A program made the translations under genes and the position numbers. DNA of 64,000 nucleotides, taken from assembly GCF_000423665.1 (NCBI RefSeq), contig NZ_AUIK01000010.1, positions 62,001-126,000 on the forward strand. Direction: 5' to 3'. Origin of the DNA: Solirubrobacter soli DSM 22325 (GTDB lineage Bacteria > Actinomycetota > Thermoleophilia > Solirubrobacterales > Solirubrobacteraceae). Positions 59,032 through 64,000 of the stretch are shown one piece after another (within the stretch, counting starts at the first letter, position 1; the number at the start of each line of letters is the position of its first letter). The notes under the pieces are model-generated. The model did not search any database, was not told the origin of the DNA, and was given only the letters and a program-made list of their open reading frames with translations.

Positions 59032-59676
59032 CTATCCGCGCAGGTAGGTGAGCACGGCGAGGACGCGGCGGCTGCTGTCCGAGGACTCGAGCAGGCCGAG
59101 CTTGATGAAGATGTGGCGCACGTGGCTCTCGACCGTCTTCGGGCTCAGGAAGCAGAGCTCGCAGATGCGCTTGTTCGAGTGGCCTTCGGCCATCAGGCCC
59201 AAGATCTCCCGCTCTCGCGCGGAGAGCTCGTCGAGTGGCCCCGGCTCGCGGACGCGGTTGAGCAGGCGGTTGACGATCGCGGGATCGAGCACGCACTCCC
59301 CGTGACTGATGCGGCGCAGGGCGTCGCCGAGCACGCCGGGGTCGCCGACGCGCTCCTTGAGCAGATAGCCCGTACCCGCCGGGTAGTCGGCGAACAGCGC
59401 CGCGGCGTAGCGGGCGTCGAGGTAGCTCGAGAGCAGCAGCACCGCCGTCTGCGGGTGATGCTTGCGGATCTCGGCCGCCGCCTTGAGGCCCTCGTCGGTC
59501 TGCGTCGGCGGCATCCGGATGTCGACCAGCGCCGCATCCGGGCGCTCGCGCGCGATCAGCCGGAGCAGCGCCTCGGGCTCCTCGGCCTCGCCCACGACCT
59601 CGAAGTCGCGGTCGGCGAGCAGCCGCGCCAGGCCGGCGCGCATGAGCGCCATGTCCTCGGCGATCACGATCCGCAC
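59032..59676 (-). CDS. NarL/LuxR-family response regulator
   Basis: The receiver (residues 1-120) has the ED pair, phospho-acceptor D52 in LVDIRMPP, Ser in LLLSSYLD, and the Lys in YLLKERV. The C-terminal LuxR-type helix-turn-helix runs SAREREILGLMAEGHSNKRI to SPKTVESHVRHIFIKLGLLE. A GGGAGG ribosome-binding site precedes the GTG at 59676. It overlaps the kinase gene by 13 bases and so forms a pair with it. The frame is open further upstream, as a shadow of the kinase. Confidence 0.93.
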   Translation of the reverse strand: MRIVIAEDMALMRAGLARLLADRDFEVVGEAEEPEALLRLIARERPDAALVDIRMPPTQTDEGLKAAAEIRKHHPQTAVLLLSSYLDARYAAALFADYPAGTGYLLKERVGDPGVLGDALRRISHGECVLDPAIVNRLLNRVREPGPLDELSAREREILGLMAEGHSNKRICELCFLSPKTVESHVRHIFIKLGLLESSDSSRRVLAVLTYLRG

Positions 59677-61295
59677 GGCAGCCTCCCTTCCGCACCGCCG
59701 GACGCGATCGCGAGCGTGCCGCCGAGCGCCTCGAAGCGGTCGGCCGCATCCTGCAGGGCGGGCAGCGCGACGCCCGGGAGCGCGATCCGCGCGCTCACCT
59801 GCTCCGCGTCGCGCTCGACCGTGATCCGGACCGCGCGGCCGTCGCCGTGCCGTTCGGCGCACCGCACGCCGTCGAGGATCAGGCGGTAGACCGCGGATTC
59901 AAGGCTCGGGTGCAGGCGGTTGTGCGGCATCGCCTCGATCTTCAGCGGCACCGCCGCCTCGTCGGCGAGCTCGAGCGTCGCCGACTCCAGGCCGGCATCC
60001 GTGAGCGCGGCGGGATGGATGCCGTGCGCGAGCGCCCGCAGATCCGCCAGCGCTGCCTTGACCTCATCGCGAGCGCGGTCGTCGAGGGTCATCGACAGCG
60101 CGATCAGCCGCTGCTGGGCTCCGTCGTGGAGGTCGCGCTCGATCCGGCGGCGCTCGGCGTCGCCGACCTCGACGATGCGCCGGCGCGAGGCCGCGAGTTC
60201 GCTCAGCTCGGCCCTGACGCGGGCGCGCAGCGAGGCGTGCTCGAGCGCCAGACCGGCGCCGCGAGCCGCGGCGGCGACGTGCTCGGCCGTGGCTTGGTCG
60301 TGGCGCAACTCGGCGATGACGTCCGCTCCGCGGGTGACCTGCGTGACGGCGCGGCCCGGACTCGCCGGCGCCGGACGTCCGTCGGCGTCGACCGCACCGG
60401 CCCCGTGCGGGAAGACGATCTCGAGGCCGGGATCGCCGAACGCGGCGCGCAGTCCCACGGGCGACGGGAGCGCGGCCGCGACGAGGTCGGCGATCCGGCG
60501 GCTCAACCGCCGCGCGCGGACGTACTCGAACGCGACCGTGCCCGCGGCTACAGCCAGCGCGGTGGTCTGGGCGAGCCAGAGGGTGCGAGTGGTCTCGTCG
60601 ATCGTCGGCACGCCGTGGGTCGCGTTGACCGCGAACCCGGCCGCGCCGAGCAATGCGGCCGCGGCCGCCGCGGCCCGCCGCCGCAGCCCGAGGAGCCCCG
60701 CCGCGGCGCAGGTCAAGGCGGCGGCGTAGAGGCCGCTGTGGACGAGCGCGTCGTGCAGGTCGGCGTCGGAGACGACGAGCAGGAGGTTGCGCGGGCAGTC
60801 GAAGCAGCCCGTGGCCTCCGGGTCGAACGTCGCGGTCGCGAGCAGACCGAGCCAGCCTGCGGTGGCCGCGAGCGCCGCGACCGCGAGGGCGGGGGGCACC
60901 CGCGATCCGGCGCGTGCGGCCACGCCGGCCTGCGCCGGCGCGACGGACTCGCGGCCTCGGCGCGGCGCGCGCCGGTGCAGCAGCGCGGCGGTCGCGGCCA
61001 GCGCCGGCGCGGTCGCGCCGAGCGTCAGCGCGGCCGTGAAGGCGAGCGCGCCACCGGCCTCGGGCAGCGGCCAGGCGGCGAGAAACAGCGCGGGGCCGGC
61101 GGCGGCGAGTGCGATGCCGCCCCGGTCGCGGGGCGCCACGTACACGCCGGCCACCCAGGCGCCGAGGCCGGCGACGAGCATCAGCGCGAGCGCCGCGGCT
61201 TCACCGCCCGTCAGCGTGTCCGCCGGGTGGGCGCGCGCGTGGGCGGCCGCGGCGACCCCGAGGGCGGCGACGACGCATGTGGAGGGGATCCCCAT
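59664..61295 (-). CDS. Multipass membrane histidine kinase (HisKA_3 type) with a degenerate ATPase domain
   Basis: The 543-residue protein has about eight membrane helices in residues 5-250, then a coiled linker and the HisKA_3 dimerisation helix with DAERRRIERDLHDGAQQRL, phospho-acceptor H390 intact, and the LRALAHGIHPAALTDAGLE segment. The ATPase-like end keeps the fold outline but lacks the motifs: the N-box position reads LILDGVRCAERHG with no Asn, the DxGxG box is replaced by ARIALPGVALPA, and the second glycine box by LAIASGGAEGRLPC. It probably cannot bind ATP. It may be phosphorylated by another kinase. The ATG at 61295 (MGIPSTCVV) fits the first helix. Confidence 0.88.
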   Translation of the reverse strand: MGIPSTCVVAALGVAAAAHARAHPADTLTGGEAAALALMLVAGLGAWVAGVYVAPRDRGGIALAAAGPALFLAAWPLPEAGGALAFTAALTLGATAPALAATAALLHRRAPRRGRESVAPAQAGVAARAGSRVPPALAVAALAATAGWLGLLATATFDPEATGCFDCPRNLLLVVSDADLHDALVHSGLYAAALTCAAAGLLGLRRRAAAAAAALLGAAGFAVNATHGVPTIDETTRTLWLAQTTALAVAAGTVAFEYVRARRLSRRIADLVAAALPSPVGLRAAFGDPGLEIVFPHGAGAVDADGRPAPASPGRAVTQVTRGADVIAELRHDQATAEHVAAAARGAGLALEHASLRARVRAELSELAASRRRIVEVGDAERRRIERDLHDGAQQRLIALSMTLDDRARDEVKAALADLRALAHGIHPAALTDAGLESATLELADEAAVPLKIEAMPHNRLHPSLESAVYRLILDGVRCAERHGDGRAVRITVERDAEQVSARIALPGVALPALQDAADRFEALGGTLAIASGGAEGRLPCGS

Positions 61296-61316
61296 GGCCG
61301 GGCGATCATCTCGCGT

Positions 61317-61356
61317 TTGACAGGGGCCAGTGCACCGGTTCAGGGTCTGCACTGAT
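61317..61356 (+). promoter_or_regulatory. TTGACA -35 and palindromic site 2 (TCAGGGTCTGCACTGAT) upstream of the DctP-like gene
   Basis: TTGACA at 61317-61322 is a perfect -35 consensus. Exactly 17 bases on, at 61340-61356, lies the second copy of the palindromic motif, differing at one base from site 1 over 17 bases. The site thus covers the -10 position, which suggests that a bound regulator controls the divergent kinase and lipoprotein genes. Confidence 0.55.
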
Positions 61357-61389
61357 GACAGTCGGCGCGCGAGGCGCGAGCGTGAGACC

Positions 61390-62826
61390 ATGAGAGCCCT
61401 CCTGAGCACCGCGGTCGTCTTCGCCGCCGTCGCGCTGGCCGGCTGCGCGAGCGCGTCCGACAAGACCGGCGGCCGCGTCACCGAGCACGTGACGCTGACG
61501 CTTCAGATGCCGGACGCGGGCGACCCGCTCGGCGAGCGCTTCGCCCAGCTCGTCACCGAACGCTCCGGCGGGAGCGTGCGCATACGGGTCGACGACCGGT
61601 TCCGCTACGACAGCCGCGATCCGGCGGCCGAGGTGCGGCTCGCGCAGGCGTTGCGCGCGGGCAAGGAGGACATCGGCTATCTGCCGGCGCGCGCGTGGGC
61701 CGTCGAAGGGCTGTCGGCGTTCCGCGCGCTGCTCGCCCCGTTCACGGTGACGACCTATCCGGCCGCGCAGGCGCTGGCGACCGGCCCGATCGCGCGCGAC
61801 GCGCTCGCCTCGCTGCCGGACACCGTGATCGGGCTCGCGCTGGTTCCCGCCCAGCTGCGGCGGGTGATCGCGACACGCCCGCTGACGAGCCTCGGCACGT
61901 TCCGCGGGCTGCGGGTCCGCGTCATCGACAATCCGCAGTCGGCGCGCGACTTCACCGCGCTCGCCACCGACCCGGTCGAGGGCCTGCACGCCGACGACGT
62001 CAGCGAGTTGCTGCATTCCGGTGGCCTCGACGCCGCGGAGACCTCCCCGAAGCCCGTGCTCGACAACAGCTACGGGGTCGACGCGAAGTACCTGACCTCC
62101 TACGCGATCTTTCCGAAGTTCCAGAGCATCGTCATCGGCGCCCATGTGTGGAAGCGACTGTCTGACCGCCAGCGATCGGTCCTGCGGTCGGCGGCGCGTG
62201 ACGTGGTGGCGGCGGCCGGGACCGAGATCCCACGCGATGAGACGTCGCAGCTCGCGCAACTGTGCCGGACCGGCGTGCGGGTCCTGGTCCCGACGCCGGC
62301 GGAGCTGGCGTCGCTGGCGAAGGCCGCCGAACCCGCCGCGGCTGAGCTGGACCCGAAGCTGCTCGCCGCGCTGCGCGCGCTGCCCGGCGCCGGGCCGCAG
62401 GCCGAGGCGACCCGGCTGCCGCAGGACTGTCGCTCGCCCGCGGCGCCGCACCGGCCGGCGGCGAAGGGCCCGCGCTTCCCCGAGGGCGTCTTCGTCACCC
62501 GTATCACCGAGGAGGACGAGCGCCGCGGCAACGTCACCAACGAGGACATGCTGCAGGATCTGACGATCCGCACCCGCATGCGCGACGGGCGCTGGTACCA
62601 GACGCTGGACCCGAACCCACCCGGCCAAGGTCCCTTCAGCGGCACCTACACCGTCGATGGCGACGAGCTGACGTTCGTGATGCTCGAGGCCAACGGACCG
62701 GTCGCGGCCCCCGAGACCCTCCGCTGGAGCTACTTCAACGGGCGGCTGCGCTTCGAGATCGTCGAGGTCGCCGACTCCGCCGGGCGCGTCATGTACGCAG
62801 CGCACCCATGGCGAAAGGTCGGCTGA
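61390..62826 (+). CDS. DctP-like solute-binding lipoprotein with an added C-terminal beta domain
   Basis: The lipobox LALAGCAS anchors the protein outside the membrane. Residues ~40-330 follow the TRAP-transporter DctP fold (TLTLQMPDAGDPLGERFAQLV, GTFRGLRVRVIDNPQ, VDAKYLTSYAIFPKFQSIV, WKRLSDRQRSVLRSAARDV). Residues ~365-478 are an extra domain with strands ending in FSGTYTVDGDELTFVML and PETLRWSYFNGRLRFEIVEV. No TRAP permease genes (dctQ, dctM) are adjacent, but a membrane kinase-like protein overlaps its end by 19 bases. A sensory solute-binding role, presenting ligand to the kinases, is the inference. Confidence 0.82.
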   Translation: MRALLSTAVVFAAVALAGCASASDKTGGRVTEHVTLTLQMPDAGDPLGERFAQLVTERSGGSVRIRVDDRFRYDSRDPAAEVRLAQALRAGKEDIGYLPARAWAVEGLSAFRALLAPFTVTTYPAAQALATGPIARDALASLPDTVIGLALVPAQLRRVIATRPLTSLGTFRGLRVRVIDNPQSARDFTALATDPVEGLHADDVSELLHSGGLDAAETSPKPVLDNSYGVDAKYLTSYAIFPKFQSIVIGAHVWKRLSDRQRSVLRSAARDVVAAAGTEIPRDETSQLAQLCRTGVRVLVPTPAELASLAKAAEPAAAELDPKLLAALRALPGAGPQAEATRLPQDCRSPAAPHRPAAKGPRFPEGVFVTRITEEDERRGNVTNEDMLQDLTIRTRMRDGRWYQTLDPNPPGQGPFSGTYTVDGDELTFVMLEANGPVAAPETLRWSYFNGRLRFEIVEVADSAGRVMYAAHPWRKVG

Positions 62827-64000
62827 TCGCAGGAACCGTCGTGGCGCTCGGCGTCGCGGCCGAGCTGCTGGGAGGCGTGACGGCGCGCGGCCTCGCCGTG
62901 GCCGACCTGCTCACCGGCATCGCCGCCGGCCTGGGCGGTGCCTGGCTGCTGCGCCGCGCCGGCGCCACGGCGGACCTGGCGGTGGCGACCGCGGTCGCGT
63001 GGTTCGCCGGAACGCTCGACGGGAGTGCGAACGCGGCGCTCGACGCGATCGGCGGCGTCTGCGTGCTCGCCTATCGCGGGCCGCTGCTGCATTTGCTGCT
63101 CCGCGTGGTGGGTGGGCGTGTGGCGCGCGGCCTCGTCGTCGCGGCGTGGCTCGGCGCGTTCCTGCCGAGCACGGTGACGATCGCGGTGGCGGCCGCGACG
63201 GGCGCCGTGGCACTGGCCCACGCGCGGCGTGCGGGAGCGGACCGGCGCCGGGCGCTGCTCGCGGCCGCCGCCTGCGCCATCGCTCTCGCGGCGCTCTGGA
63301 CCGCGGCGCTCGAGGGAGGCGGCAGCACGGCGCTGACGCTGCTCAACGACGGGCTGGTGATCGCGACCGTGTCCGTCGGGCTCGCCGCCGCGAGCGGCCT
63401 GTGGGCGCGGGCGGCGGCGAGCCGCCTCGTCGTGGCGCTCGACCGCGACCGCCACCCCGGCCGACCGGTCACCGCGCAGCTCGCCCGCGCCCTCGCCGAC
63501 CCGGACCTCGAGCTCTGTTACGCCGTACCCGGCCTCGGGTGGGTCGACGAGCGTGGCCAGCCGGTGACCGAGCCCGACGGTCGGGTCGTCTCCCGTGCGG
63601 CGGCGCCCGGTGGAGCGGAGGTCGCACTGGTGCACGGCGGCACCGCCGACCCGCGGCTCGTGGCGGCGGCGACTGCGGCCGCGGCGCTCGCACTGGACTC
63701 GGCGCGGCTCGAAGCGGAGCTGCGGGCGACCGCGGCCGGGGTGCGGGCCTCCCGGCGCCGTTTGCTGACGACCGCCGACGACGAGCGGCGCACGCTCGGG
63801 GAACAGCTCGAGACGCGCGTCCTCGCCCGCTTGCGGCGGGTCGAGCCGCTGCTCGCCGACGACCGCGCCCGCGCCGAGCTTGAAGCGGTGCGGGGCGAGC
63901 TCGCGGCGCTCGGGACCGGGCTCTACCCGCCCGCGCTGCGCAACGGCACGGGGATCGCCGAGGCGCTGAACGAGCTGGTCGCCCGCGCGGTCGTCCCGAC
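62808..64000 (+). CDS. Membrane histidine-kinase-like protein lacking the phospho-acceptor His, partial (runs off the window)
   Basis: The 397 codons present begin ATG at 62808 and read through the edge. Five to seven hydrophobic helices fill residues 5-200, followed by a soluble region with LCYAVPGLGWVDERGQPV near 235-255 and a GAF/PAS-like spacer. The dimerisation helix TADDERRTLGEQLETRVLARL aligns with ERRRIERDLHDGAQQRL of the neighbouring kinase, but the acceptor position is E335 rather than His. LAALGTGLYPPALRNGTGIAEALNEL matches the segment after it. The ATPase domain lies beyond the window. It overlaps the lipoprotein gene and is coupled to it. Confidence 0.8.
   Translation, partial: MAKGRLIAGTVVALGVAAELLGGVTARGLAVADLLTGIAAGLGGAWLLRRAGATADLAVATAVAWFAGTLDGSANAALDAIGGVCVLAYRGPLLHLLLRVVGGRVARGLVVAAWLGAFLPSTVTIAVAAATGAVALAHARRAGADRRRALLAAAACAIALAALWTAALEGGGSTALTLLNDGLVIATVSVGLAAASGLWARAAASRLVVALDRDRHPGRPVTAQLARALADPDLELCYAVPGLGWVDERGQPVTEPDGRVVSRAAAPGGAEVALVHGGTADPRLVAAATAAAALALDSARLEAELRATAAGVRASRRRLLTTADDERRTLGEQLETRVLARLRRVEPLLADDRARAELEAVRGELAALGTGLYPPALRNGTGIAEALNELVARAVVP

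Follow-up and report, generated by a model that had tools for sequence, protein, structure and literature searches.

Genes and motifs at the locus

The window, a stretch of 64,000 nucleotides from Solirubrobacter soli DSM 22325 (G000:C7:62001-126000), a soil actinobacterium, carries near its right end the genes of a response regulator, a membrane kinase-like protein (HK1), a solute-binding lipoprotein of the DctP family and a second kinase-like protein (HK2; Table 1). These genes form a four-gene module, because the DctP lipoprotein gene stands between the kinases and the NarL-type regulator overlaps HK1. The preliminary description of this DNA had presented two adjacent kinases as a possible two-member system. 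Both kinases are confirmed and they are neighbours, but not immediate ones since the DctP gene intervenes, and the lipoprotein and the response regulator are further members. The GTG start of the regulator is located inside the end of HK1 (overlap of 13 nt), the first 19 nt of HK2 lie within the DctP gene, and a gap of 94 nt separates the two diverging transcription units, HK1-regulator and DctP-HK2. The whole HK2 gene (G000:C7:124808-126301) encodes 497 amino acids; 301 nt of it extend past the end of the window and were read from the genome. An Rfam scan of the flanks found no RNA.

Table 1. Features of the module (positions in the window)
Feature	Position	Strand	Remarks
NarL/LuxR-type response regulator	59032..59676	-	Response_reg 58 bits, GerE 55 bits
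HK1, membrane HisKA_3 kinase-like protein, 543 aa	59664..61295	-	Phospho-acceptor half, no usable ATP site
HK1 degenerate catalytic (ATP-binding) domain	59667..59957	-	Lacks the N, G1 and G2 boxes; predicted to retain the core fold
Codon of H390, HK1 phospho-acceptor His (HDGAQQ)	60126..60128	-	Located via the reading frame
DctP-family (TRAP type) solute-binding lipoprotein, 478 aa	61390..62826	+	DctP 75.9 bits, lipobox ALAGC
HK2, in-window part	62808..64000	+	ATPase half, no phospho-acceptor His
Codon of HK2 E335, at the position of the phospho-acceptor His	63810..63812	+	

HK1 contains the box RDLHDGAQQRL, in which the His is residue 390. This is a DHp box with the HDxxxQ His of the HisKA_3 family, and HisKA_3 is the only Pfam match of the protein (24.9 bits for a cut-off of 24); the ATPase domain has no Pfam match even at E values up to 10. 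The sequence at the position of the N box is DGVRCAERHG (EALTNVAKYA in complete relatives), at the G1 position ALPGV, without DxGxG (DDGVGG in complete relatives), and at the G2 position LPALQDAADR, without a second glycine box (GSGLRGLADR in complete relatives). Translation and Pfam agree with the earlier reading that HK1 keeps H390 and is devoid of the N-box Asn, DxGxG and the second glycine box. In the predicted model, whose top fold match is DesK, the core of the catalytic domain is confident (about 84-95 pLDDT) and the ATP-lid region is absent. The missing motifs are not explained by a frameshift or decay, since the frame stays in register up to the overlapping regulator and all copies have the loss in common.

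At the corresponding His-box position HK2 displays EQLETRVLARL, where the Glu is residue 335; the replacement of the His, already described, is thus read in the translation. No HisKA_3 match was obtained for HK2 in Pfam up to an E value of 10, and the DHp His is lacking. Past the end of the window, the N box is EALANVDKHAG (N426), G1 is LADDGRGG and G2 is RGLRGIGDR, and HATPase_c is detected with an E value of 1.3e-4 and 22.8 bits, under the cut-off of 26.4. As these three boxes are all present beyond position 64000, the ATPase of HK2, on which the earlier hypothesis had depended, is predicted to be intact. Neither HK1 nor HK2 combines the N, G1 and G2 boxes with the His; jointly they hold one full set, with the acceptor His and the ATPase site on different polypeptides, as in a split or heterodimeric kinase. 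Counted from the His position to GIHP/GLYP, the DHp hairpin is unusually short in HK1 and HK2 of the window, at 39 and 40 residues, compared with 48-56 in complete relatives. Matching hairpin lengths fail elsewhere as a general proof of pairing (58/42 at L043, 54/45 at L101), so that the match in the window has the value of an observation only.

The predicted fold of the DctP protein (mean pLDDT of 82.5) matches the TRAP solute-binding proteins with a TM score of up to 0.84 on the target, which assigns it to the family on fold as well as on sequence. It carries an extra C-terminal beta-rich domain (residues about 360-478) that is conserved in most copies of the module, has no Pfam match and is lipocalin-like by impression only. 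The large TRAP permease DctM was not detected in the genome; a control search was positive in 7 of 14 genomes. Because the genome is about 95% complete, the absence of DctM is strong but not absolute. Given that no DctM is detectable in the genome, a role of the lipoprotein as a sensor is more probable than one in transport. The regulator is composed of a receiver with its phospho-acceptor Asp (VDIRMP) and a GerE helix-turn-helix, and belongs to the NarL type.

Recurrence in Actinomycetota and complementary losses

Relatives were found by searches with HK2 and with a profile of the lipoprotein, followed by annotation of the neighbourhoods; an alignment of five HK1 copies was used for the scan of named genomes. 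HK1, HK2 and DctP occur together at 12 loci, to which fragments at contig ends (L080, L104-L107) are added. All four gene types are present in the window and at L040 and L043 (same genome), in other genomes of the order (L049, L050 and L081) and elsewhere in the phylum (L101, L102 and L103). At L100 the contig stops ahead of the regulator, and at L108 (Micromonospora sp. CPCC 205371) a run of N interrupts HK2. An Ilumatobacteraceae assembly (L172) contains one complete and one partial set. The module therefore ranges from Thermoleophilia to Micromonospora and Acidimicrobiia, and the same pair with the same losses, which the preliminary description had proposed to look for in related genomes, was found in several families and classes of Actinomycetota. 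It is rare: the lipoprotein was detected in 5 of the 232 genomes of the order. HK1 is accompanied by HK2 at every module locus where the contig is long enough. The gene order differs among loci, the commonest being HK2, DctP reversed, HK1 and regulator, so that inheritance of one arrangement does not by itself explain the shared content.

Several loci deserve a separate description. At L172, HK2, DctP, HK1 and regulator are followed by a DctP in reverse orientation, another HK2 and another HK1 that is cut; the His is missing from both HK2 copies. At L101, the HK1 frame is broken downstream of the DHp domain and DctP is divided over two frames, owing to decay or to errors of a draft assembly. 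Genes of DctP-type lipoproteins are arranged in tandem, up to five, at L104, L105 and L106, from two related genomes, and the L106 array adjoins HK1 and the regulator; this multiplication hints at several ligands feeding into one kinase. L107 is a contig of 5.8 kb encoding a DctP protein near the module family (E value of 7e-88), with no kinase nearby. The f5 matches of DctP (L082-L099), from another family of the class, likewise have no kinases nearby and were discarded as ordinary solute-binding proteins.

Twelve HK1 copies have both sites readable (L009, L040, L043, L049, L050, L081, L100, L102, L103, L106, L108 and L172). HDGxQQ is kept in 12/12 of them and the N-box Asn in 0/12. The HK1 of L101 has the His box, with the frame broken downstream. 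Conversely, the catalytic domain is readable in 13 HK2 copies, all of which keep the N box and the glycine boxes (one G1 being DEG instead of DDG), and the His is replaced in 9 of these 13 (by E, R, S, Q, N, Q and R, plus E and R at L172). The Gln situated one turn after the His is kept in all HK1 copies and lost in 10 of the 11 HK2 copies of the motif table. Both halves are intact in 41/41 unpaired relatives of the same table. A frameshift artefact or chance was ruled out as the origin of this complementary pattern, which is seen at 12 loci while none of the 41 unpaired relatives has lost either half. Among further kinases examined, the unpaired L153 and L168 have deviating catalytic boxes; intact motifs are consequently the rule in the wider family and not universal.

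The His is still kept in 5 of 14 HK2 copies (L049, L081, L100, L101 and L108), with the boxes HETVER, HDGAER, HDGAEA, HEGAQR and HDGPR, where the neighbouring acidic residue and/or the downstream Gln is changed. HK2 might be functional alone in these five copies, and because of them the division between HK1 and HK2 is not strict everywhere. The obligate pairing suggested initially is consistent with the complementary motifs, but may not extend to the five copies with a His.

Phylogeny, co-evolution and selection

After masking of the motif columns, the HK2 proteins constitute one group (support 100/97), the HK1 proteins another (90/66) and the complete kinases a third. With this moderate support, HK1 is probably monophyletic. 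The support in the unmasked cytoplasmic tree is 99 for HK1 and 100 for HK2, and a tree of the upstream regions alone gives 96 for HK2 and 56 for HK1. The truncated kinase of L045 (310 aa) was left out, as its misplacement had split HK2. On the masked tree, the loss of the N box in HK1 corresponds to one change and the state of the His to at least 5 changes. As a lost His would probably not be regained, these changes suggest that HK2 lost it more than once.

The distances among HK1 and among HK2 proteins are correlated (Mantel r of 0.87, p of 5e-5, 10 loci). Those of the regulator and the lipoprotein correlate too, and a shared history of the locus explains part of these correlations. The dN/dS ratios, calculated by the Nei-Gojobori method on one pair of related genomes, are about 0.12 for the HK1 DHp, 0.29 for the dead catalytic domain of HK1, 0.18 for the degenerate DHp of HK2 and 0.21 for the HK2 catalytic domain. 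With values of 0.12-0.29, dead domains included, the degenerate domains of HK1 and HK2 are still under constraint. The 12 loci, the dN/dS ratios and the Mantel correlation together indicate that the pair is kept jointly and under purifying selection, as befits a split kinase.

Proposed mechanism and relation to known systems

We consider it likely that the four genes encode one signalling system, in which an HK1/HK2 heterodimer would be controlled by the solute-binding protein and HK2 would phosphorylate HK1 in trans. As the set of active-site residues is complete only in HK1 and HK2 combined, neither protein should be functional alone, and this heterodimer would be the most economical arrangement. 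The DctP-type lipoprotein would take an extracellular ligand and control the membrane heterodimer, the ATP-binding domain of HK2 would phosphorylate H390 of HK1 within the dimer, and HK1 would then hand the phosphate on to the Asp of its co-encoded NarL-type regulator. When HK2 is not engaged, HK1 probably dephosphorylates the regulator, because it keeps the Gln of HDxxxQ in all copies and HK2 has mostly lost it. In HisKA_3 kinases, dephosphorylation depends on this Gln, which places the water molecule, and does not require the His (PMC5231405).

Two other explanations appear unlikely, to a similar degree. According to one, another complete HisKA_3 kinase phosphorylates HK1, HK2 has other partners and the neighbourhood is incidental. 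The genome has many complete paralogues of the family, and cross-phosphorylation between paralogous systems is known for ChrSA/HrrSA (PMC9491836), but the co-occurrence of HK1 and HK2 despite their rearranged order and the correlation of their trees argue against it. According to the other, which we regard as equally improbable, HK1 acts as a phosphatase and docking protein only, and ATP binding by HK2 is an allosteric switch with no phosphate transfer. The retention of the phosphatase signature HDxxxQ in HK1, whose function depends on the Gln and not on the His (PMC5231405), is compatible with such a role, as are DivL and RetS, which modulate other kinases (PMC9491836, PMC12189002). Yet the His, dispensable for a phosphatase, is kept in every scored HK1 copy and lost from HK2 in several lineages. 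Gene decay, with redundant kinases randomly losing parts, is very improbable: it could account for the long branches of the window copies and for the broken HK1 frame and split DctP of L101, but the losses complement each other in every copy, each domain measured has a dN/dS far under 1, and 10 of the 12 loci have both kinase frames open (the exceptions being L101 and L108, the latter through its run of N).

The HK1/HK2 heterodimer thus remains our preferred interpretation. At the level of sequence, it is backed by the complementary motifs, the gene content, the separate lineages, the correlated trees, the purifying selection and the lack of DctM; the conserved and complementary two-subunit module is real, and the heterodimer put forward in the preliminary description is supported wherever sequences can test it. 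Since HK1-regulator and DctP-HK2 are separate transcription units, the ratio of their expression could set a threshold. In models of CheA3/CheA4, a split kinase can be ultrasensitive or bistable if its acceptor half, when free, acts as the phosphatase (PMC3591291). More tentatively, the module may represent an old, phylum-wide and constitutively heterodimeric HisKA_3 lineage controlled by a TRAP-type binding protein that has lost its transport role, where HK1 alone would be the phosphatase and HK1 with HK2 the kinase, and where a promoter-set ratio would fix the threshold of a possibly ultrasensitive or bistable response.

The textbook histidine kinase is a homodimer, and few obligate heterodimers are known, mostly as isolated cases. 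In Mycobacterium tuberculosis, the kinase acting with TcrA consists of two proteins, one with the ATPase and one with the His (Rv0600c/Rv0601c); they differ from HK1/HK2 in that each lacks an entire domain and in that no DctP gene is known to take part. A literature search on Rv0600c/Rv0601c/TcrA returned passing mentions only, and a search by name for described heterodimeric kinases returned none. No description of the four-gene module was found in the literature, within which subscription journals were thinly covered.

In its working, the closest known system appears to be FasBC/FasA of group A Streptococcus, reported in 2025, with two full-length membrane kinase-like proteins and one regulator (PMC12675982). 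According to the available text of that report, two-hybrid assays detected heterodimers of FasB and FasC and no homodimers; FasC gives the His (H246) and its own ATPase domain is dispensable, and the kinase domain of FasB is active (PMC12675982). The likeness concerns the two membrane proteins, one with the acceptor His and the other with the active kinase. The same text indicates the differences: FasA is ComE-like whereas the regulator is here of the NarL type, FasB has candidate His residues, and no solute-binding protein is involved. A phylum-wide record of complementary losses, found for the present module, is absent from the text available. In CheA3/CheA4 of Rhodobacter sphaeroides, the acceptor and the ATPase are also on different proteins, neither autophosphorylates alone and the acceptor protein doubles as a phosphatase (PMC3591291). 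There, however, whole domains are missing, the acceptor is a P1 domain and the cluster is a cytoplasmic chemotaxis one, whereas HK1 and HK2 are membrane proteins that retain both halves, as degenerate domains. Hik36-Hik43 of Synechocystis, called a split histidine kinase, similarly has two gene products and one regulator, but Hik43 is CheA-like, with CheW-interaction and receiver domains, and comes from a different family (PMC7656254). DesK/DesR and NarX/NarL share the DHp family, the HDxxxQ motif and the NarL-type regulator (PMC5231405), but each kinase is a single complete protein acting as a homodimer. ChrS and HrrS are paralogous kinases able to heterodimerise (PMC9491836). Judged from its genes and motifs, the module would be a new variant of the split or heterodimeric kinases exemplified by FasBC and CheA3/CheA4.

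Some dozen natural copies allow the two halves to be traced: the His persists in every acceptor partner, has disappeared more than once from the ATPase partner, and intermediate forms still exist. How a duplicated kinase evolves into an obligate heterodimer can thereby be tested directly, and the module offers orthogonal two-subunit sensors whose output would depend on the subunit ratio.
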